Assembly: GCF_003008695.1 (NCBI RefSeq) | Contig: NZ_PXZT01000003.1 | Location: 3,439 to 67,438, forward strand | Length of the DNA stretch: 64,000 nucleotides | From: Trichococcus alkaliphilus | GTDB lineage: Bacteria; Bacillota; Bacilli; Lactobacillales; Aerococcaceae | Direction of reading: 5' to 3' | In this document: piece by piece, positions 4,478 through 63,995 of the stretch | Layout of the letters: the number at the start of each line of letters is the position of its first letter | Position numbering within the stretch: the stretch's first letter is position 1 | Notes under the pieces: model-generated | Told to the model about the DNA's origin: nothing | Database searches by the model: none | The model's input: only the letters and a program-made list of their open reading frames with translations | Position numbers and translations under genes: made by a program

Positions 4478-4544
4478 CGGATTCACCCCCTCCAAAGGTT
4501 CCTTGAACAACGGCTGGTTTTTGTAAACAGCATTCCTATCATCA

Positions 4545-4589
4545 AAACCCGCTGAAAGGACAAAAGCTTGCCGTCGGTTCAGCGGGTTT
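4545..4589 (-). terminator. Terminator after the nitroreductase-like gene
   Basis: AAACCCGCTGA (4545-4555) pairs with TCAGCGGGTTT (4579-4589). On the minus strand the stem runs into TTTTGAT, and it lies about 60 bp after the stop of the gene ending at 4649. Confidence 0.65.
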
Positions 4590-4648
4590 ATTTTGCATGT
4601 GTCTTGTTTTAGTTTCGGAAAAGCGTGGGATTTCGCCTTCACACAGGC

Positions 4649-8164: not shown

Positions 8165-8315
8165 CCGGAGTTGGAGTCAGTTTTCGCCTCCGGCGAGGCT
8201 TTGCTCATCGGAGTTGGTGCCTGTTTTGGATGGCTCAACTCCGGCGAAGCATTGTTCGTCGGAGCTGAGCGGCCATTGCTTGGCCGTCCTCCCGTGAAGA
8301 GACTTCTCGCCGGAG
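8165..8315. repeat. CTCCGG triple-hairpin array A
   Basis: Three short palindromes sit at 8188-8213, 8239-8264 and 8289-8315, at a pitch of 51 and 50 bp. Each has the form CTCC-x(16-17)-CGGAG with internal pairing, for example CTCCGGCGAAGC paired against GTTCGTCGGAG. A half unit CCGGAG lies at 8165-8170. The 24-25 bp between hairpins differ in sequence but are partly self-complementary. The array lies between the lipoprotein gene and the GH16 gene. The same element occurs at 39230, 43966 and 63867. Confidence 0.85.
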
Positions 8316-20604: not shown

Positions 20605-20922
20605 TCATGCGCGGCGTACCTGATATTCGCGGGCGATCGTTTGCACGAAAATCTTGCCGTCCCCCGCTTGGCCGGTGCTGTTGACCGCAAGCAGGATGCC
20701 GATCACGTTTTCCACATGTTCATCCTCCGTCACGATCGTAAACATCCGTTTCGGCATCAGCACGCTGTGTCCGACTGCTTCGCGGAAGTCTCTGCCTATC
20801 AGCGGATTCTTGCCGCGTCCGAAGACTTTTCGGCAAGTGAAGCCCGGAAAGCCGCCTGCAGCCAGTTTTTGTTTCGTTTCCGTCACCTTGTTCAGGCGAA
20901 TGATCGCTGTCACTTCCTTCAT
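20605..20922 (-). CDS. Small PII-like nitrogen regulatory protein (first paralogue)
   Basis: The 105-residue protein keeps the PII frame: MKEVTAIIRLNKVTETKQKL as the first strand and helix, T-loop region KVFGRGKNP...REAVGHSV, and the C-terminal B/C-loop motif TGQAGDGKIFVQTIAREYQVR. The T-loop is shorter and unlike GlnB, without the uridylylated tyrosine context. It resembles NifI- or GlnK-like paralogues found in anaerobes. PII proteins bind ATP/ADP and 2-oxoglutarate and gate transporters or enzymes. Located 38 bp before tauC and 27 bp after its own paralogue. Confidence 0.82.
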   Translation of the reverse strand: MKEVTAIIRLNKVTETKQKLAAGGFPGFTCRKVFGRGKNPLIGRDFREAVGHSVLMPKRMFTIVTEDEHVENVIGILLAVNSTGQAGDGKIFVQTIAREYQVRRA

Positions 20923-20949
20923 ACAATTCCCACCTTTACAGTCCTTCTA

Positions 20950-21279
20950 TTACAGTCCTTCTGCGCCGCTACTGATCGTATAGGCATTTTCGATTGCGTG
21001 CACGAATATTCGGCCGTCGCCGTAATTCCCCAAATCGCTTGTGCGCGCTTGGGTGGTGATGACGTCGACGATTTCTTTTTCATGGGCTGCTTCGGCCACC
21101 AGGAACAGCAATTCCTTCGGCAGTTCGTCGTAGAAGACATCGCCGATGTGGATGCCTGCCTGTTTCCCTCTCCCGTACACGTCCATCCGTGTCACGGCGG
21201 TGTGCCCCTTTTCAGCGAGTTTCGCTAAAATCTGTTCGGTCTTCTCCGGCCTCACAATGGCCTCAATTTTCACTAGCAT
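20950..21279 (-). CDS. Small PII-like nitrogen regulatory protein (second paralogue)
   Basis: Started at MLVKIEAIVRPEK (GGTGGAG just upstream), the product is 109 residues. The PII core is clear: KIEAIVRPEKTEQILAKLAE, the DVYGRGKQAG turn into a short T-loop, PKELLFLVAEAAHEKEIVDV and the nucleotide motif GNYGDGRIFVHAIENAYTI. It differs from the first paralogue at many positions, so the two may form a heteromer or sense different states, as NifI1/NifI2 do. Its position between the aminotransferase and transporter genes points to nitrogen-status control of taurine-type amine use. Confidence 0.82.
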   Translation of the reverse strand: MLVKIEAIVRPEKTEQILAKLAEKGHTAVTRMDVYGRGKQAGIHIGDVFYDELPKELLFLVAEAAHEKEIVDVITTQARTSDLGNYGDGRIFVHAIENAYTISSGAEGL

Positions 21280-21372
21280 GCGCTCCACCCCTTTAGGCTG
21301 TTTTCTTCATTAAATAGTAGATTTTTTGAAAGATATTTTTTGAAATGTGGTGCGGCCGGGACCCGGCGCATT

Positions 21373-22737
21373 TTACAAATAGGTCGCATCGACAAGCGTC
21401 AGCACTTCATCTAGGATCGGCAGTACTTCAGCCAACTCTGCTTCGGTGATCGTAAGCGGTGGGCAGACGCTGATCGTCGTTTCGCGTCCGAAAGTCGAGA
21501 AGCCTCGATCCTTCAGTTCCTTGTAGATGGCCGGCATGATCCGGTTCGGCGTGTTGAAAGGCACAAGCGGTTCGCGCGTTTCCTTGTCGAGTACCAGTTC
21601 CACTCCGCAGAAGAGGCCGTAAGTGCGGACATCTCCGACGCAAGGGTGTTTGGCTTTCATCTCTTCCAGGTAATCCTTCAGTATTGCGCCGAATTTTTCG
21701 ACGTTGGCGGCGATTTTTTCATCCTCGTAGACTTCCAAAGTCGCCAAGCCGGCTGCGCAAGCCAATGTGTGGCCGCTGTAAGTCAAGCCGCATTGGAGTT
21801 GGTTTTCAGTGAAGTATTCGCTGATCCACTCGGAGACGATCACGCCTCCCAGCGGCACATAGCCTGATGTCACCCCTTTAGCGAAGGTGATCATGTCTGG
21901 GGTGAATCCGTATTGTTGGAAAGCGAAAGCTGTTCCGGTCCGGTAGAAGCCGGCCATGACTTCATCGAGGATCATCACGATGCCGTAGCTGTTGCAGAGG
22001 TTGCGCACCCCTTCCAGATACCCTTTTGGATAAGCGATGATGCCGTTCGCGCCGATGACCGTTTCCAACAGGATGGCCGCCACATTGTACGGGCCTTCGT
22101 ATTGGATCTGTTCCCCCAGTTTCTTCAGGTAGAAGGCCGTCAATGCCTCTTCGGTTTCAAATGGAAGGTTGTCGCGGTAAGGAGACGGATTGGAGAATTT
22201 CACAAAGCCGTTCGCGCCGCCGATCTCAGCCGCAAACCTGCGGGAATCCCCGGAAGCATTCGAAGCAGCAAGCGTTGCGCCGTGGTAGCTGTGGTAGCCG
22301 CTGAAGACTTTCGTGCGCCCCGTCGCGATCCGTGCCATCTTGATTGCGTTCTCGTTCGCATCAGCTCCGGCATTCGTGAAGAACACGCGCGCCATATCCC
22401 CGCCGGCCAGCTCGACCAGTTTCTTCGCCAACAAGGACTTCACATCGGTCGCATAACTCGGTGCCATGAAGCACATCTTTGCAGCTTGATCCTGGATCGC
22501 ATTCACGACTTTCGGATGCTGATGACCGATGTTCGCGTTCACCAACAGGGAGGACATATCCACTTGACGGTTGCCATCATAGTCCCAGAAATAAATGCCT
22601 TCCGCCTTTTTGACTGCCATGGCAGCTTGGCCCTGCTTCGACCAGGCCCGCATCACGTACTGTTGATCCATCGCTATTACTTCTTCTCCGGTTAAAGTTG
22701 TTGCTTCCGTTGTATTCCATGTTGCGTTCACTGTCAT
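21373..22737 (-). CDS. Class III aminotransferase, probable taurine aminotransferase
   Basis: The 454-residue PLP enzyme is a class III omega-aminotransferase. Motifs in order: INVNANIGHQHPKV-like substrate loop, FFTNAGADANENAIKMAR, YHSYHGATLAASNASGD, ILDEVMAGFYRTG with cofactor Asp258, FAKGVTSGYVPLGG with Schiff-base Lys287, and YSGHTLACAAGLATLE. GGGAGG precedes the ATG. It is first in the operon. Closest known roles in this context are taurine:2-oxoglutarate (Toa) or taurine:pyruvate aminotransferase, giving sulfoacetaldehyde plus glutamate or alanine. Which acceptor is used is not visible. It probably provides nitrogen from taurine, since no sulfite-releasing enzyme is encoded in the operon. 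Confidence 0.83.
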   Translation of the reverse strand: MTVNATWNTTEATTLTGEEVIAMDQQYVMRAWSKQGQAAMAVKKAEGIYFWDYDGNRQVDMSSLLVNANIGHQHPKVVNAIQDQAAKMCFMAPSYATDVKSLLAKKLVELAGGDMARVFFTNAGADANENAIKMARIATGRTKVFSGYHSYHGATLAASNASGDSRRFAAEIGGANGFVKFSNPSPYRDNLPFETEEALTAFYLKKLGEQIQYEGPYNVAAILLETVIGANGIIAYPKGYLEGVRNLCNSYGIVMILDEVMAGFYRTGTAFAFQQYGFTPDMITFAKGVTSGYVPLGGVIVSEWISEYFTENQLQCGLTYSGHTLACAAGLATLEVYEDEKIAANVEKFGAILKDYLEEMKAKHPCVGDVRTYGLFCGVELVLDKETREPLVPFNTPNRIMPAIYKELKDRGFSTFGRETTISVCPPLTITEAELAEVLPILDEVLTLVDATYL

Positions 22738-22787
22738 GCTGTTCCCTCCCGATGAAATTTCTTTTAATCAATTTCTAATATGTCCCC

Positions 22788-22823
22788 ATAATAGTGTGAT
22801 TTTTACTTTCGGTAAACTGAAAG
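22788..22823 (-). promoter_or_regulatory. Promoter and dyad upstream of the taurine-type operon
   Basis: On the minus strand TTTACC (22811-22816) is 17 bp from TATTAT (22788-22793), about 50 bp before the aminotransferase start. The dyad CTTTC-N8-GAAAG (22806-22823) overlaps the -35 box and may be an operator. No dedicated regulator gene is adjacent. Confidence 0.55.
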
Positions 22824-23369
22824 CTCTAATTTGATGATAGCATTTATGACATTTCTGCTTTCATCACAAAAATATTCCGCTTACAACGGGGTATATTTGC
22901 TGCCCTTTGTCAGTTATGTAAGGTTTTTCTGAAAAGAAACTGACTTTCGTGGCCGAATAATTGTGAGGGCTTTCAGGTTTGCTGTGGGTGGAATGAGGCA
23001 AAATAACTATCGATATATTTAAGCGCCATTACAGAAAGCGACGCCAGTTTCCAGGAATGCGCGTTAGCTTTACTGACATACTTTGATTGTGGAAGAGTTT
23101 TTTTGAGGTTATCAAGAAGAAACATGTGAGGTAATCTGCCGTTGATAGGGTCAGGTTTGGGAGAATATTCGGAAGTTTACCTAATAAATAAAAGACAAAG
23201 TGTTCAGAAGAACTCAAAAAAGCGAAAGACTCCCAGCTGGAGGATGCTGGCTGTCTTCGCTTCTATTCGGGATTAATGCAATTCAGTACGGCACTAATTT
23301 GACCAGTACGTATAAAACACGTATAATTAATTATATAGAAGAACACAGTCATATAAAGGGGGACCCATC
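22824..23369. other. Intergenic stretch without a recognisable gene
   Basis: Short open frames here (for example 23029-23217 on the minus strand) have no ribosome binding site and no recognisable motif. The right part holds a hairpin at 23219-23263 whose surroundings resemble the end of the fic gene. An AT-rich promoter area (GTATAATTAATTATAT around 23320) leads into hicB. Confidence 0.5.
23219..23263 (+). terminator. Orphan terminator resembling the fic terminator
   Basis: AGCGAAAGAC (23221-23230) pairs with GTCTTCGCT (23253-23261), with an inner CAGC/GCTG helix. It follows AAGACAAAGTGTTCAGAAGAA, which closely matches the segment AAGACAAAATGTTCAAAAAA after fic. No intact gene precedes it. 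Confidence 0.5.
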
Positions 23370-23774
23370 ATGATCGAAGACAAAGTATACATCTATCCCA
23401 TCTACATCACTGTCGATTTGGCCGAGGAATATCCTTATTTCGTCGAGATACCGGATGTGGATGGTTACACACAAGGAAAAGACTTAGCAGAAGCTATCAC
23501 GATGGCCAGGGATTATATCGGTTTTGCAGTAATCGATAAACTGGAGCAAAACGAGCCTCTGCCCTTGCCAGATCAAATCACCTATCAACAAAACAATACT
23601 CAAATCAAAACGCTTGTGGATATCAACTTCAAAAAATATAAAGCACAACGTGACAACAAAGTAGTGAAAAAAACACTCACGATCCCAAATTATTTGAATG
23701 AACTTGGCATCGAAAAAGGCATCAACTTCTCGTTGACACTGACGGAGGCTTTAAAGGAAAAGTTGGGCGTCTGA
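23370..23774 (+). CDS. hicB: HicB-like antitoxin-type protein, no HicA seen
   Basis: The 134-residue protein combines a HicB_lk fold (YPIYITVDLAEEYPYFVEIPDVDGYTQGKDLAEAITMARDYIG) with a C-terminal ribbon-helix-helix-like segment (KKTLTIPNYLNELGIEKGINFSLTLTEALKEKL), the two-part design of HicB antitoxins. AAGGGGG precedes the ATG. HicB normally binds the small RNase HicA, encoded next to it, but I find no HicA-like frame (double-stranded-RNA-binding fold with GSHH motif) in 22.8-25 kb. It may be an orphan regulator. The fic gene follows 79 bp downstream. Confidence 0.8.
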   Translation: MIEDKVYIYPIYITVDLAEEYPYFVEIPDVDGYTQGKDLAEAITMARDYIGFAVIDKLEQNEPLPLPDQITYQQNNTQIKTLVDINFKKYKAQRDNKVVKKTLTIPNYLNELGIEKGINFSLTLTEALKEKLGV

Positions 23775-23853
23775 TGCAGCGGCATTATTGAATAAATAGT
23801 TGTATAATCATTAGGAAGCAAGTTACTTTTCCATTTGAAATGAGGTTTTAGTT

Positions 23854-24669
23854 ATGGACTATTCAGAAGGCAAATTACCACCCAGCTATGATGTCGCGGA
23901 AAATGAGCTGCCTTACCAAATAAAATTGGCGTTATGGCAGACGGCATTCGGTCTGCAAAAAGTCGATGGCCTCAGCCCATCCAAGTACATGGTTGAGCTG
24001 GCCTACGAAAATATAGAAGGAAAAAAAGGATACGATGCCATTTATCGCGAAATTTCGGATTATCACCGGGAAGCACATGTGGATGCAAACACGGTCGAGG
24101 CGGATATCGTTTCACTCCGGATTGCGGAATTGTTGGCTGAAGATTGTTTCCTGCTCTCCCCTTCCACGCTGTTGGGCATCCATAGGCATTTGTTCACAGA
24201 TGTTTTCCCGGAAGAAATTCCTGTGGGCAAGTTCCGGACTGTGAATATCACAAAGAAAGAGCCTGTGCTAAATGGGGAGACGGTCCAATATAGTTCGCAT
24301 TTCATGATTCAGGATTCTTTGGCGTACGATTTTGAAAAAGAACAGAATTTCTCTTACAGTAACCTGACTAACGAGCAAAAAGCGCTGCACGCGATGGCAT
24401 TTTTGGCGGACATCTGGCAAGCCCATCCTTTCAGAGAAGGAAATACCCGGACGGTCGCTGTTTTCGGTATCCAATATTTGAGGAAATTAGGGTTCCACAT
24501 CGACAATTCACTCTTCAGCGAGCATGCCGCCTACTTCAGGAACGCCCTCGTGCTCTATCATTACCATGGCGAGAAACAGGATAAACAGTTTTTGAAAATG
24601 TTTTTCGAAAATCTGCTGTTGGGCAAAAAGAACGTGCTATCGGATGAAGAAATGCACATGAAAGAATAA
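23854..24669 (+). CDS. Fic family protein (probable AMP transferase)
   Basis: The 271-residue protein contains the Fic active-site motif AHPFREGNTRT with catalytic His191. The substrate-clamping flap lies near VGKFRTVNITKKEP. Fic enzymes transfer AMP or other nucleotide parts to target proteins and can act as toxins. An N-terminal helix region (SKYMVELAYENIEGKKGYDA) looks like the VbhA-type inhibitory segment fused to some Fic proteins, though I cannot confirm the inhibitory (S/T)xxxE(G/N) residues. A hydrophilic C-terminus ends EEMHMKE. Terminator at 24692-24741. Confidence 0.85.
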   Translation: MDYSEGKLPPSYDVAENELPYQIKLALWQTAFGLQKVDGLSPSKYMVELAYENIEGKKGYDAIYREISDYHREAHVDANTVEADIVSLRIAELLAEDCFLLSPSTLLGIHRHLFTDVFPEEIPVGKFRTVNITKKEPVLNGETVQYSSHFMIQDSLAYDFEKEQNFSYSNLTNEQKALHAMAFLADIWQAHPFREGNTRTVAVFGIQYLRKLGFHIDNSLFSEHAAYFRNALVLYHYHGEKQDKQFLKMFFENLLLGKKNVLSDEEMHMKE

Positions 24670-24691
24670 GACAAAATGTTCAAAAAAATAC

Positions 24692-24741
24692 AAAAAAGCA
24701 AAGACGATCAGCATGCGGATGCTGGTGGCCTTCGCTTTTTT
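24692..24741 (+). terminator. Terminator of fic
   Basis: AAAAAAGC-AAAG and CTTCGCTTTTTT enclose an inner AGCATGCGGATGCT stem, followed by a T run. It lies 22 bp after the fic stop codon. Confidence 0.75.
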
Positions 24742-24816
24742 TCGTGAAGTAAACGAATTCCATGCGGTTAACCGGTTTCCACTTCTCACCATTGTGCCTT
24801 GAACATTTAGATCGAA

Positions 24817-24953
24817 GGTTGTCCGATAACGTCGAAGAATCGGACAACCTAAGTTGGTTCGGTTCGAAGGTTGTCCGATAACGCTGATGAATTGGACAAC
24901 CGGAGCATGTTCGGTTCGAGGGTTGTCCGATAACACTGAAGAATCGGACAACC
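24817..24953. repeat. GGTTGTCCGAT triple-hairpin array
   Basis: Three near-identical 33-bp palindromes occupy 24817-24849, 24869-24901 and 24921-24953, an exact 52-bp pitch. Each is GGTTGTCCGAT, an 11-base loop (AACGCTGAAGA type), then ATCGGACAACC. The two 19-bp spacers share TTCGGTTCGA. The array lies between the fic terminator and the betaine-binding protein terminator and overlaps no convincing gene. Confidence 0.9.
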
Positions 24954-24978
24954 CAGGCTACTTTTACCAAAAAAGCAA

Positions 24979-25009
24979 GAGCTGCTGCCTCGGAATGAGG
25001 CAGCAGCTC
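24979..25009 (-). terminator. Terminator of the OpuA-type operon
   Basis: GAGCTGCTGCCTC and GAGGCAGCAGCTC form a perfect 13-bp stem with a five-base loop. On the minus strand it is followed by TTGCTTTTTTGG, 22 bp after the stop of the binding-protein gene. Confidence 0.85.
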
Positions 25010-25031
25010 CTGCTAGTGTTCAATATTCTGT

Positions 25032-25940
25032 TTATTTGGCTACGCCGGCAGTCCATTCTGCGACTAGATCCGGATTAGCTTCGACGAACGCTGCAGCAGC
25101 GTCTTCGGCTGATTCGCCTTCATAGATTTGGAGCATCAAGGCTTCGACATCTTCGATGGTCCAATGGAATTGATCCAATACTTGGTAAGCTTCAGGCATG
25201 TCGGTTTCGAGTCCTTCACGTGCCATCGTGTGGATCGTTTCTTCGCTGCCGAAAGTTCCCTTGGGATCATCCAGGTATTTCAGGTCATAGGCCGAGAACA
25301 TCCAATGCGGGTTCCAGGCTGTTATGACGATGTCTTCTTCATTTTCGATTGCTTGTTCGAGTGTGACGGTCATTGCGCCGGATGAGGACGTTTCGATTGC
25401 CCAATCACTCAGATTCGAGTAATCCGTGATGGCACGCTCAGCAGCTGCCACGATACCTGCACCTGGCTCGATTCCGGTGATGGATTTGCCGGATTGATCG
25501 GTCAAATCTTCGATGGAGTCGACATCCATATACGCAGGAACGGCCAGACCGATCTTCGCGCCTTCAAGGTTTCCGCCTAGGTCGACCATCTTATCGCCGT
25601 ATTCTTCCAATTGTGCGCCGTGCGTTCCGGGCAGCCAAGCGCTCAACATGGCATCCGCTTCGCCTGTGGAAACGGCTTCCCACATGATTGCGTTATCCAA
25701 TGGTGTCAAAGTCACATCGTAACCGAGGTCTTCCAGAACTTTTGCGACAACGTGGTTTGTGGCCACTGCGTCATCCCATTCGACGTAAGCCAGTTCAATT
25801 TCCTGGCCTTTGCCGACCGTGTCTTCCATGGATGCTGTATCTTCTGTCGCACCGCATCCAGCGGCGATCAGTGTGACACCTAAGCCCAATCCGGCAGTAA
25901 GTCCGAGGCGTTTCCAGTTACGTTTTGTTGTTTTTATCAT
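25032..25940 (-). CDS. opuAC: Glycine betaine/choline-type ABC substrate-binding lipoprotein
   Basis: Started at MIKTTKRN behind GGAGAG, the product is 302 residues. A basic signal peptide ends in lipobox AAGC. The mature part is an OpuAC/ProX-like fold with aromatic cage residues: IELAYVEWDDAVATNHVV, MLSAWLPGTHG, ITGIEPGAGIV and VITAWNPHWMFSAYDLKYL. Trp residues in these motifs hold quaternary ammonium groups. It should deliver betaine or related osmoprotectants to the OpuAB permease. Last gene of a three-gene operon, 58 bp after the permease. Confidence 0.9.
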   Translation of the reverse strand: MIKTTKRNWKRLGLTAGLGLGVTLIAAGCGATEDTASMEDTVGKGQEIELAYVEWDDAVATNHVVAKVLEDLGYDVTLTPLDNAIMWEAVSTGEADAMLSAWLPGTHGAQLEEYGDKMVDLGGNLEGAKIGLAVPAYMDVDSIEDLTDQSGKSITGIEPGAGIVAAAERAITDYSNLSDWAIETSSSGAMTVTLEQAIENEEDIVITAWNPHWMFSAYDLKYLDDPKGTFGSEETIHTMAREGLETDMPEAYQVLDQFHWTIEDVEALMLQIYEGESAEDAAAAFVEANPDLVAEWTAGVAK

Positions 25941-25998
25941 AGGTATGTTTCTCTCCTTTTTATTTGGCAATTAGGAATATGTGAGTCTTTATGTAGCT

Positions 25999-26853
25999 TT
26001 ATGATGCGCTCTTTTTGCTGAATTTTTGGGTCAGACGGTCGATGATGATGGCAAGCACAACCAAAGCCAACCCGGATACGAAACCGGAACCGATTTTGGC
26101 GCGCTGCAAAGCGGAAAGGACATTACGGCCCAATCCAGGGGCACCGATCATCGAAGCGATGACGACCATCGACAAGGACAGCATAACGGTCTGGTTGATG
26201 CCGGCCATAATCGTGGATTTCGCCAACGGCAACTCGACTTTGAATAACCTTTGCGCGCCGGTGCTGCCGAATGATTCGGCTGCTTCAACCAGTTCGGTGG
26301 AAACTTGTCTGATCCCCAGATTCGTGAAGCGGACGGTCGGCGGGATTGCGAAAATAAGTGACGCAAGCACCCCCGGAACCATGCCGATCCCGAAGAAAGC
26401 AACGGCTGGAATCAGATAAACAAAGGCTGGCATCGTCTGCATGAAATCCAAGACCGGATTGATGATGCTGTTCGCAAGTTTGTTTTTCGCCATCAGGATA
26501 CCAAAAGGCACACCGATCAGTACGGACAGCAAGCTCGAAAACAGGACCAGCGTCAAGGTGAACATCAAGTCTTCCCAGAGTCCTTGGTTATGGATGAACC
26601 AGAGTCCGACGACGGAAAAGATGGCCAGGCCGAATTTTTTCCCTGAGGCAAAGAATGCCAACAGAGCGACTAATACAATCAGGATGACTGCCGGTATGGC
26701 CGTCAATGTTGAAGTCATCAGATCAATCAAAGTCTGCGAAGACTCTTTGATCGGATCGAACAAAAAGCTGAACGTGTCTGCGGTCTTATCCGTGACGTAT
26801 TCAGTGAACTCGGCAACCGGCAATTCAGGAATGAAGTTTAATAGATTATCCAT
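25999..26853 (-). CDS. opuAB: Glycine betaine ABC transporter permease
   Basis: This 284-residue membrane protein carries about six transmembrane segments and the BPD_transp_1 signature ([29 protein letters not shown]). The [24 protein letters not shown]-like segment ([20 protein letters not shown]) is highly typical of ProW/OpuAB. An N-terminal amphipathic extension ([16 protein letters not shown]) is also characteristic. Its start overlaps the end of the ATPase gene by eight bases, implying translational coupling. Confidence 0.9.
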
Positions 26854-39018: not shown

Positions 39019-39229
39019 TACTTTTCCCCCTTTTCCTAGTTCTTTTGTATTTTCAAGGATAGCGGTGCTGATGCAGCGTCGCTATCCCAATATTTGCTGA
39101 TGCCTTTCATTCGTGAAGGTTGTTCCAGTATGCCATGGAATCCGGTTATAGGGTAACACTTAAATGATATATACAGATATAGGTTGATGCTATATGTTTA
39201 TGCTTCTTTTCTCCAGGTGTGAAGGCTGT

Positions 39230-39387
39230 CCGGAGCTGAGCGCTATACGTGGCGCCCTGCTCCGGTGATGGGCCGCTCACCGGAGGACGACGGTAAATCG
39301 CGGGATCCAACTCCGACGAGCACCTCCTCATCGGAGGAAAGGACTCCTTAGTGGGCCGAACTCCGGCGTAGCCTACGTTCGCCGGAG
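39230..39387. repeat. CTCCGG triple-hairpin array B
   Basis: Hairpins at 39260-39285, 39311-39336 and 39361-39387 repeat at 51 and 50 bp, with a half unit CCGGAG at 39230-39235. Stems are CTCCGGTGA/TCACCGGAG, CTCCGACGAG/CTCATCGGAG and CTCCGGCG/CGCCGGAG. G-to-A changes on one arm are matched on the other as G-T or compensating pairs. Same element as arrays at 8165, 43966 and 63867. Confidence 0.85.
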
Positions 39388-39404: not shown

Positions 39405-39438
39405 AAAAAAACCACCTGCGTGATAACCGGGTGGTTTG
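39405..39438 (-). terminator. Terminator of the second AEC carrier gene
   Basis: AACCACC pairs with GGTGGTT around ATAACCG-type inner bases. The minus strand continues as TTTTTTTGTGG. It is 18 bp after the stop codon at 39456. Confidence 0.8.
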
Positions 39439-43810: not shown

Positions 43811-44234
43811 GGATAGCATGCACCCCTTTCTTGTGCTGCATAGCGGACTTCGTTCCGTATCCGTATACATATTCGTTCTCTGTCTTTGATTATACAGGTG
43901 CGAGGGGTCCGCCGCAACGGACCCGGGAAGGAAATCTGCCTGTTGGGACTAGTGAACGAGCGACTGGCCGGAGTGCCGGCCCGCATTTTGAGTGTCTGCT
44001 CCGACGAGGGGTTGCGCCATCGGAGGAGAGATCCGCTATTACCGGGCTCCTCCGGCGGCGGCAGCCTCGCCGGAGCTGGGCGCATTTCGCAGTGCTGTCC
44101 TCCGGCGACCGCCGCCTAGGCCGGAGTTCCGGCACACATTCCAGTCGAACAAAAAAATCCGCACACCACCGCGGACAGCCCCCGCGCATGCAGTTTGGGG
44201 CGATCCTACCGGCAGAATGCGAAAAGGAATTCAG
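43811..44234. other. Intergenic region between DEAD-box and LacI genes
   Basis: No gene seen. It contains GGGTCCG/CGGACCC at 43908-43927 (short hairpin) and the CTCCGG triple-hairpin array at 43966-44126. Open frames crossing it have no ribosome binding sites and arise from the GC-rich palindromes. Confidence 0.6.
43966..44126. repeat. CTCCGG triple-hairpin array C
   Basis: Hairpins at 43999-44025, 44050-44075 and 44100-44126 repeat at 51 and 50 bp. A half unit GCCGGAG ends at 43973, 25 bp before the first hairpin. Stems are CTCCGACGA/CATCGGAG, CTCCGGCG/CGCCGGAG and CTCCGGCG-type/GGCCGGAG. Spacers include GCGCATTTCG and CCCGCATTTTG, resembling the spacers CCCGCATTCCG of array D. Confidence 0.85.
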
Positions 44235-55661: not shown

Positions 55662-58355
55662 TTATTTGATCTTGTTTCTGAGCACCATCGGCAAGATCCC
55701 TTTGTTGCGGTAATAGTCGATTTCGATTTCAGAATCCAGTCTTGCGATAGCTTGGAAGGTTTTTTCCGTTCCGTCCGCAGCTTGCGCTGTCACAGTGATT
55801 ACTTCATTCGGTTTTACCTCATCCGTGATTGCAATCGCGTACTCTTCCAACCCTGTCAATCCCAGCGTCTCCGCATCTTCCCCTTTTAGGAATTCCAACG
55901 GAAGCGCACCCACCATGATCAGGTTGGAGCGGTGGATCCGTTCGAAACTTTTAGCGATTACCGCATCGACGCCCAACAGTCTGGCGCCTTTTGCTGCCCA
56001 GTCGCGGGAAGATCCCATTCCATAATCGTCTCCGGCCAGAATCACCAATCCGGTGCCGTCTTCTTTATATTTCACGCTGGCATCGAAAATCGGCATGATT
56101 TCGTTGGTCGGGATGTATTTGGTGAACCCGCCTTCCAAGCCATCCGCCAAAGCGTTTCTCAAGCGGATATTCGAGAAAGTACCGCGCACCATCACTTCAT
56201 GGTGTCCTCTGCGGCTTCCGTATGAATTGAAGTCTTTCGGTTTCACGCCATGCTCCATCAGATATTTTCCGGCTGGAGACTTCATTGCGATGGCTCCAAC
56301 CGGCGAGATGTGGTCGGTCGTGATGGAATCCTGGAATTTCCCTAAAACGCGCATTCCTTTCAGGCTCGTTATCGGCTCCGTTTCCAATTGGAAGTTTTCG
56401 AAGTATGGTGGATTTGCGATATAGGTTGAATCGCCATCCCAGTCGTAAACCGGTTTATCTGCGGATTCAATTTTGTTCCACAGGTCGTTTGAGTCGAATA
56501 CGGAACGGTACTCTTCTTTGAACATATCCGCCAGCACGGATTCATTCACGACTTTTTGGACTTCTTCGTTACTCGGCAAAATGTCCTTGAAATAGACTGG
56601 CTGTCCTTCTTTATCCGTCCCGATCGGATCGGTAGCCAGATTCACTTTGACATTGCCCGCTAAGGCATAGGCGATGACCAAATGCGGCGCTGCCAGGTAG
56701 CCCGCTTTCACTTCCGCATGGATGCGTCCTTCAAAGTTGCGGTTACCGCTCAATACAGCCGAAAGCAGGATGTTGCCCTCTTTGGCCGCTTCGCTGACTT
56801 CCGGCCTCAGCGGTCCGGAGTTGCCCACGCAGGTCATGCAGCCGTAGCCGATGATATTGAAGCCTAACGCTTCCAGGTAAGGCAATAAGCCCGATTTTTC
56901 GTAATAGCGCGCCGTCACTTTCGATCCCGGCGACATGGATGTTTTGACGTAGCGTTTGACGGAAAGTCCCTTTTCGACTGCATTTTTTGCCAACAACGCG
57001 GCGCTGAGCATCAGGTACGGATTGCTTGTGTTTGTGCAGCTTGTGATGGCCGCGATGGATACCGCTCCGTTTTCCAGCTCTTCTTGATAGCCGTCTTCAT
57101 AGGTGATCGTCACTTTGTTGTCGATATCCTCTGCATCCAACCCATAGCCTTGATTCCCCATCGGCGCTGCATAGGCTTCGGTGAATTTTTGGCTGACATC
57201 GGATAGTTTCACTAAATCCTGCGGTCTTTTTGGACCGGCCAAGCTTGGTTCCACTGTTGAAAGGTCGATTTCGATCAGCTCTGAATACTCCGGTTCGATT
57301 GCATCATTGTAGAAAAGGTTGTTCGCTTTGACATAGGCTTCGATCCTGTCGACTTTCGCATCTTCCCTGCCGGTGAAGCGCAGATAGCCCAATGTTTCGT
57401 CATCAACCGGGAAGAAGCCGCAGGTCGCTCCGTATTCCGGCGCCATGTTGGCAATGACCGATCTGTCGGCGATCGTCAAGTTTTTCAGGCCGTCACCGAA
57501 ATATTCGACGAATTTTCCGACTACTTTTTGCTCACGCAACACTTGGGTCATTTTTAAAGCCAGATCAGTTGCTGTCGCGCCGTTTTGGAGTTTGCCAGTA
57601 AAGCGTACGCCAACGACATCCGGCAGCTGCAGGTAACACGGTTGACCCAACATGCCTGCCTCGGCTTCGATGCCGCCGACGCCCCAACCAAGGACACCCA
57701 AAGCGTTGATCATCGTCGTGTGCGAATCGGTCCCTACCAAAGTATCCGGGTAGAGGATGGTTTCCCCATCGGCTTCGGCTTCCTTGACCACATCAGCCAG
57801 GTATTCCAAGTTCACCTGATGGACAATTCCCGTCGCTGGTGGCACAACACTGAAGGAATCAAACGATTTTTCCGCCCAGCTGAAGAATTCGTAACGCTCG
57901 CGGTTCCGATCGAACTCAATTTCCGCGTTCATTCTGAAGGCATCATTGAATCCGGAGTAATCGACTTGAACGGAATGGTCAATGACCAAATCCACTGGTA
58001 TGTCCGGATTGATGATTGCGGAATCTTTACCCAATTTATCGGTCACATAACGCAATGCTGCCAAGTCCACGATCGCCGCTCCGCCTGTCAAATCCTGCAG
58101 AATGACACGGGATGGTTTGAATGGGATCTCTGTTTTCACTTCGTTTACAGGTTTCCAGTTGGCTAAGGACAGGACGTGTTGTTCAGTGATTACCTTGCCG
58201 TCTTCTTGCCTCAACAAGTTTTCCAGCAAGACACGGATGGAATATGGCAATTTGGCGATCGTCACTTTTTCATTTTCCAATGATTTCAGATCGTAGTACT
58301 TATACTCCTTCCCATTTGTAGTGATGGTTTTAATTGATTTCTGCTTGCTGTTCAT
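55662..58355 (-). CDS. acnA: Aconitate hydratase (AcnA type)
   Basis: The 897-residue enzyme starts at MNSKQKSIK behind GGAGAGG. It is the AcnA/IRP1 type: [38 protein letters not shown], cluster cysteines in [12 protein letters not shown] and [11 protein letters not shown], and the swivel-domain [19 protein letters not shown] and [16 protein letters not shown]. It interconverts citrate, cis-aconitate and isocitrate. Its neighbours are a LysR regulator, a CitMHS carrier and a PrpF-like isomerase, so it probably serves uptake and use of an external tricarboxylate. A full TCA cycle is not shown by this window. Confidence 0.93.
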
Positions 58356-63808: not shown

Positions 63809-63861
63809 CGCACGCAAGCGCGCGGGGGCTGCCCCGCTGAATCGCTTGCGTGCGTTTTTTT
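63809..63861 (+). terminator. Terminator of the XRE/membrane-protein pair
   Basis: CGCACGCAAGCG (63809-63820) and CGCTTGCGTGCG (63843-63854) form a perfect 12-bp stem, followed by TTTTTTT. It lies 47 bp after the stop codon. Confidence 0.9.
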
Positions 63862-63866
63862 GTTTC

Positions 63867-63995
63867 CTCCGGTGAACGCAGGCTTCGCCGGAGTTCGCCC
63901 CGCATTCCGGGTGCTCACCTCCGGGGAGACGGGCTTCCTCGGAGCTGGAGCAATTTTATTTGAGCGCTCCTCCGGCCAGCAGACCCTCGTCGGAG
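63867..63995. repeat. CTCCGG triple-hairpin array D
   Basis: Hairpins at 63867-63893, 63919-63944 and 63970-63995 repeat at 52 and 51 bp, next to the terminator above. Stems are CTCCGGTGAA/TTCGCCGGAG, CTCCGGGGA/TCCTCGGAG and CTCCGGC-type/GTCGGAG. No half unit precedes it; if this copy is inverted relative to arrays A-C, the half unit would lie just past the window end. Confidence 0.8.

Follow-up and report, generated by a model that had tools for sequence, protein, structure and literature searches.

Four groups of evenly spaced palindromes were found between predicted genes in the stretch of DNA analysed here (the window), which covers 64,000 nucleotides of Trichococcus alkaliphilus (GCF_003008695.1, contig NZ_PXZT01000003.1, positions 3,439 to 67,438). 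The features, with positions counted from the first letter of the window, are as follows.

8165-8170, minus strand, half palindrome (CCGGAG) at the end of array A
8188-8315, minus strand, array A, palindromes 8188-8213, 8239-8264 and 8289-8315 (covariance model R1, minus strand, E 8.9e-16)
39230-39235, minus strand, half palindrome (CCGGAG) at the end of array B
39260-39387, minus strand, array B, palindromes 39260-39285, 39311-39336 and 39361-39387 (R1, minus strand, E 1.3e-23)
39405-39437, minus strand, terminator-like hairpin with T-run beside array B, read by eye
43968-43973, no strand assigned, half palindrome (CCGGAG) at the left end of array C
43999-44126, no strand assigned, array C, palindromes 43999-44025, 44050-44075 and 44100-44126; orientation unclear, with weak R1 hits on both strands (E 5.3e-9 and 4.8e-8)
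44151-44176, minus strand, terminator-like hairpin with T-run beside array C, read by eye
63810-63861, plus strand, terminator-like hairpin with T-run just before array D, read by eye
63867-63995, plus strand, array D, palindromes 63867-63893, 63919-63944 and 63970-63995 (R1, plus strand, E 2.0e-21); the first of three tandem copies at 181 bp that continue beyond the window

An earlier note, made from the sequence alone, had described these four arrays as three palindromes each at a 50-52 bp pitch, with a half-arm ahead of the first palindrome of A, B and C, and this observation is confirmed. The start-to-start pitches are 50-52 bp, and CCGGAG lies 17, 24 and 25 bp before the first palindrome of A, B and C, respectively. 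Three points of the description needed correction. The count, which the note took as fixed, is only mostly so, since 94 of the 148 arrays in the loci examined at that stage, orthologous copies included, have three palindromes by a simple rule. The half-arm recurs as one end of the element, and the compensating stem changes, although they exist, are accompanied by outer base pairs conserved as sequence, which pairing alone does not explain. A second dispersed repeat of about 115 bp was seen at 39080-39197 of the window, upstream of an MFS transporter gene; 11 distinct copies of it were found in the loci examined, most of them orthologues of this site and four elsewhere.

In order to determine whether the arrays belong to a wider family, a pattern of one palindrome plus the start of the next, 22-28 bp on, was searched in the window's own genome, where it gave 90 hits on one strand and 100 on the other, against 0 and 1 for the pattern read backwards. 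The same pattern gave 21 to 364 hits per strand in the 12 other genus members searched and at most one per strand in 47 genomes of other genera, of which 5 had any. An exact scan of a consensus first palindrome over an 84,980-species collection gave 70 stretches, 67 labelled Trichococcus and 3 labelled "Sedimentibacter sp. SX930" (loci L082, L100 and L113). The latter are syntenic with Trichococcus loci at 87-93% identity, and we take the label to be wrong. An exact search of the viral collection with the first-palindrome pattern, and a comparison of one array with plasmids, gave no match, and no Rfam family matched the window at its gathering threshold. A covariance-model search of the genome and its relatives had been proposed in the note as a check, with failure to find more than the four copies or a shared model as the outcome that would count against the element. 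The model we built (R1, 50 copies, 127 positions) hit 13 of 13 genus genomes with 58-150 matches; at most 150 candidates were scored per genome, so that these counts are lower bounds. In 148 genomes drawn from the order, searched with stricter filters and 23 scored candidates, 145 had no hit, and the other three were two genus members (the window's own genome and G005) and G037, a genome of another family. The G037 copy (locus L160, 1500-1580) has two clear palindromes, lies about 300 bp downstream of a DDE transposase gene and overlaps a remnant with a glycosyl hydrolase 1 match; we take it as carried over. The family is essentially confined to Trichococcus, and the own genome has 68-73 distinct loci among the scored matches, depending on merging, a count that is likewise a lower bound.

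The dispersed element has a direction. Its first palindrome is mostly 27 bp, with the consensus CTCCGGCGAACGGAGGCTTCGCCGGAG, and is followed by a spacer of about 24 bp, a 26 bp palindrome, a spacer of about 24-25 bp and a 26-27 bp palindrome. In 79 of 116 oriented copies a left half palindrome, roughly CTCCGGYCAGC, follows 14-35 bp after the third palindrome, most often at 24 (29 of 79). Of 125 near-complete profile matches, 114 span the whole model and all of these are 125-131 bp long. Centre-to-centre spacing averages 50.5 bp, and 194 of 234 intervals are 50-51 bp, although the rule used admits only 48-54 bp; the "about five helical turns" per unit suggested in the note is loose, as 50.5 bp is 4.8 turns at 10.5 bp. 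Tandem copies repeat at 179-181 bp. A second form has four palindromes at 50, 50, 50 and 38 bp, repeated every 188-189 bp, with up to 16 or 17 palindromes in one run by a permissive rule. In G005, one of the two complete Trichococcus chromosomes examined (the other being G001), about 75 palindromes lie in 29 kb from 2,425,112 (2425112-2453700), and in the own genome quartet clusters lie at 20844-26700 and 57452-66045 of contig C22, where a 12-palindrome run with the same spacings and similar flanking sequence was found at 57452. The genes neighbouring these clusters are mixed, among them transposases, NERD, SIR2-like, EAL, GGDEF and sugar-uptake genes. Sites come almost only in groups, with 577 having a neighbour and 13 alone, and 5 for the reversed-letter control, over 3.2 Mb of sequence including overlaps.

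With codon-scored gene calls, which replaced a first count on naive ORFs (70 of 125 overlaps), none of the 125 near-complete copies overlaps a predicted gene by more than 40 bp. Of the 110 copies with both neighbours (15 at locus ends were left out), 60 lie between convergent, 47 between tandem and 3 between divergent genes, compared with 104, 395 and 89 for all gaps in the same loci (Fisher P 7e-15 for convergent and 1e-4 for divergent, although orthologous copies are not independent). Among tandem cases the first palindrome faces the gene's 3' end in 19 and the third in 28. Where a terminator was found it lay between gene and array more often than beyond the array (57 against 25 of 167 gene ends), and terminators within 100 nt are no commoner than at other gene ends (52 of 167 against 74 of 241).

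Arrays at the same site in different species were compared, chosen by one member only. Loci fetched by an exact first-palindrome match (L049-L118) favour well-kept copies, and comparisons share sites and are not independent. In 57 comparisons, from which 5 of 62 with partly deleted arrays had been dropped, stems change at 0.095 per site, spacers at 0.217, loops at 0.233 and flanks at 0.142, while gap rates are 0.0035, 0.0133, 0.0009 and 0.0805, respectively, so that indels between orthologous arrays are rare. In 26 comparisons the five outer positions (CTCCG/CGGAG, the feet) show 0.006, 0.006, 0.058, 0.013 and 0.071, positions 6-10 show 0.10-0.25, and the second and third base outside the foot 0.02 and 0.08. 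Choosing on one member can about halve the rate seen in the feet, so a neutral foot should still show about 0.1. Conserved outer letters with a freer inner stem is what a sequence-specific protein would leave, and the feet are 21 bp apart centre to centre in a 26 bp palindrome, two helical turns.

Pairing leaves a trace too. In counts that, like the alignment, used copies chosen by a pairing rule, paired cells were above shuffles in palindromes 2 (526 of 648 against 501.4 +/- 5.6) and 3 (522 of 654 against 498.7 +/- 5.3) but not in palindrome 1 (331 of 408 against 324.6 +/- 3.8). Cells changed on both sides numbered 44 against 20.6 in shuffles (0 of 500 as high), but only 9 pairs were involved against 6.6 (46 of 500 as high). 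Single changes keep pairing in 68 of 144 cases and double changes in 19 of 36. G-T mismatches outnumber A-C mismatches overall in element orientation (219 to 141 in one count, 115 to 87 in another), a mild lean to one strand, but individual positions disagree and we draw no conclusion from it; consensus spacers after the palindromes have no T-run.

Variation at the copy sites, which the note had asked to be tested between strains, was examined by comparing genus members. Array A has orthologues in G011, G012 and G002 and is missing in G005 and G004; array B has orthologues in G011, G005, G012, G010 and G004; array C is partly or wholly deleted in G011, G005, G012 and G003; and array D is present as one copy only in G005, G011 and G012. 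Presence and absence was also seen at a G012 site (44129). Single loci are therefore dispensable, but no clean empty site was found, only diverged, replaced or deleted versions. In one case (loci L082 and L091) a different small inverted repeat (GAAAGATGAATAAC ... TTATCCATCTTTTTTG) stands where locus L111 has an array (4500-4627), and in another (locus L087, within the site matching L089 3570-3696) an insertion of about 1.5 kb relative to L089, reading like an insertion sequence on the minus strand, lies just beside an array. No target duplication or extra terminal inverted repeat was found in 60 copies, after 19 of 79 had been left out by half-palindrome position or near-duplication; since the copies are old and their ends fuzzy, this does not settle the matter either way.

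The distribution of the arrays over the chromosome was then examined, which could not be seen from the window. The dnaA gene lies at 1,647,278 in G005 and 2,399,220 in G001, and one dif-like site per genome, with one mismatch to the pattern used, lies near the antipodes of dnaA at 177,785 and 715,751. GC skew changes sign across it in G001 and in contig C20 of the own genome. Model hits (76 and 79 loci after merging) leave a gap of 602 kb (20.6%) in G005, from 2,539,509 through zero to 216,669, and of 867 kb (26.1%) in G001, from 479,466 to 1,346,174, and each gap contains dif. If loci fell uniformly, gaps that large have probabilities of about 3e-6 and 6e-9, although the domain was defined after seeing the hits. 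Because a limited number of candidates had been scored, 560 kb inside the gaps and 656 kb outside, the latter chosen by us as steps plus one syntenic block, were sampled with a profile without such a limit, giving 0 and 40 matches; one array called by rule inside the G005 domain (L269) is a poor match that the profile does not find. The gaps are the same domain in both species (90.2% identity where the sampled stretches align), although some low-GC stretches lie in it (0.35 and 0.40). They hold as many intergenic gaps of 80 bp or more with a gene 3' end (37.5 and 40.0 per 100 kb) as outside (35.0 and 38.3), while convergent ones are somewhat rarer inside (3.5 and 4.0 against 7.9 and 5.6). The domain is lopsided about dif, reaching in dif orientation from -563 to +39 kb in G005 and from -630 to +236 kb in G001, and the evidence for it rests on these two complete chromosomes plus one contig: in the own genome the dif contig (227 kb) has one array, 40.7 kb from dif, close to the nearest array of G005 at 38.9 kb. 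Locus density is among the highest near the edges of the domain, where the quartet clusters also lie.

We tentatively favour the view that each palindrome is a binding site for an unidentified sequence-specific, probably dimeric, DNA-binding protein of Trichococcus, although we consider this less likely than not. The protein would recognise the feet CTCCG and CGGAG, 21-22 bp apart centre to centre, plus a base or two outside, and three sites at a 50.5 bp pitch, or four in the quartets, would form one platform placed where it does little harm, at gene 3' ends. About 70 loci in the window's genome are spread over the chromosome, and by analogy with Noc and SlmA sites the platforms would mark the chromosome outside the dif-containing domain for its organisation, segregation or the timing of division. 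The family, its anatomy, its pattern of conservation and the array-free domain are demonstrated by the analysis, whereas that a protein binds, that the arrays act as DNA and what their role may be are inferences; no binding data exist and no binding protein is known or was sought by experiment. The conservation of feet and length after insertion, the occurrence of sites in groups, the array-free domain around dif, where gaps with a gene 3' end are equally common, and the lack of a Noc match over the cut-off speak for this view. The dispensability of single loci, the pairing above shuffles and the compensatory changes, which a plain protein site would not need, a pitch that is not a whole number of helical turns, and the lopsidedness of the free domain, its definition after the hits were seen and its somewhat rarer convergent gaps all speak against it. 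A bolder reading, which we regard as possible but doubtful, is a previously undescribed chromosome-marking code in bacteria with no detectable Noc, in which the platforms organise the nucleoid or time division and the quartet clusters near the edge of the free domain would be its boundary or nucleation centre.

The main rival, only somewhat less likely in our view, is a parasitic or formerly mobile miniature repeat that works like BOX of pneumococci, copied by an unknown transposase, tolerated at gene 3' ends, enlarged by tandem duplication and now mostly fixed, with the dif-region gap arising from insertion bias or the history of spread. The high copy number limited to one genus, tandem copies differing in number between species, presence and absence at some sites, the stray copy near a transposase and the enrichment between convergent genes, which Croucher et al. 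read as a mark of parasitic repeats in pneumococci (PMC3049150), agree with such an origin. It does not explain the conservation of the feet and of length after insertion, nor the absence from a fifth to a quarter of the chromosome with equal targets; moreover, no consistent transposase partner was found, although only the Y1 family was searched. Past mobility is likely but not shown. A link to a REP-associated transposase, which the note had asked to be looked for, is not supported. Y1 genes occur in 12 of 13 genus genomes, but G008 (98% complete) has no Y1 match and yet 218 + 212 pattern hits, and arrays lie within about 1.5 kb of only 2 of 20 Y1 loci looked at, both in the array-rich G002. 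GTAG occurs in 0 of 702 foot windows and CGTC in 46, with about 25 expected. Membership in RAYT-borne REPs was rejected on this evidence, and movement by a RAYT-type transposase is very unlikely even though these are small extragenic palindromes in composite arrays.

An RNA-level element, in which transcribed hairpins end transcription from both sides or protect mRNA 3' ends, is unlikely, although the position at gene 3' ends, the pairing and compensatory counts and the excess of G-T mismatches are in its favour. The lack of a T-run after the stems, the position and ordinary frequency of terminators, the location of more than half of the placed copies between convergent genes and the conservation of the outer letters rather than only the pairing argue against it, and the dif-domain gap has no RNA explanation. 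Independent terminators or a chance grouping, the alternative against which the note had set its fixed count and pitch, are refuted by the shared 127-position model, the 114 whole-model matches of 125-131 bp and the pattern counts against their reversed control. The interpretation offered in the note was therefore partly supported: it was right that this is a repeated intergenic element set apart by count and pitch and right to list a protein-binding array as one option, whereas mRNA-end structure is less favoured and past mobility is likely but not shown.

If the arrays are protein platforms, they would be a genus-specific counterpart of Noc or SlmA sites with a new geometry and a testable case of how chromosome-position codes arise; the array-free domain hints at an unrecognised way of organising the chromosome. 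If they are old parasites, a repeat that keeps its spacing and foot sequence after insertion and stays out of a fifth to a quarter of the chromosome is still unusual. We found no description of the element: the main text of the Trichococcus genome paper (PMC6950789), which has passages on CRISPR, makes no mention of repeats, palindromes, intergenic elements, hairpins or transposition, and searches on Trichococcus, confined to the open literature, listed nothing on it.

Among known systems, the Noc-binding sites of B. subtilis and S. aureus and the SlmA-binding sites of E. coli are likewise palindromic and found in tens of places. About 70 Noc sites and 24-52 SlmA sites are under-represented in the terminus region, and putting arrays of them there delays division (PMC4726725; for Noc also PMC4331003). 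The Trichococcus arrays share this under-representation around the terminus in both complete chromosomes, but Noc and SlmA sites are short single palindromes with known proteins, whereas here 26-27 bp palindromes stand in arrays of three or more; whether a division inhibitor binds them was not assayed. No Noc protein (TIGR04285) exceeded the curated cut-off in any of 13 genus genomes, 12 of which have one weaker, ParB-like match, so another protein would be needed; SlmA was not searched. BOX elements of Streptococcus pneumoniae are modular intergenic repeats of about 100-200 bp with variable unit number, limited to one species group and enriched between convergent genes (PMC3049150). The triplets, tandem copies and quartets described here likewise vary in repeat number, but with one palindrome type at a strict 50.5 bp pitch, no target duplication found in the 60 old, fuzzy-ended copies examined, conserved feet and a dif-domain gap, while BOX has boxA, boxB and boxC modules, with which no sequence comparison was made, and is reported to have terminal inverted repeats and target duplications. 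REP and BIME elements (GTAG- and CGTC-tagged) are also extragenic palindromes, often composite and mostly downstream of genes (PMC3733652), but the Trichococcus element has no GTAG tag, no dedicated RAYT, a fixed pitch and same-direction triplets. Finally, sopC, the centromere of plasmid F, consists of tandem units each with a palindromic protein site at a pitch of a few helical turns, but it is one plasmid locus with many units, as compared with about 70 chromosomal loci, mostly of three sites, in the genome studied here.
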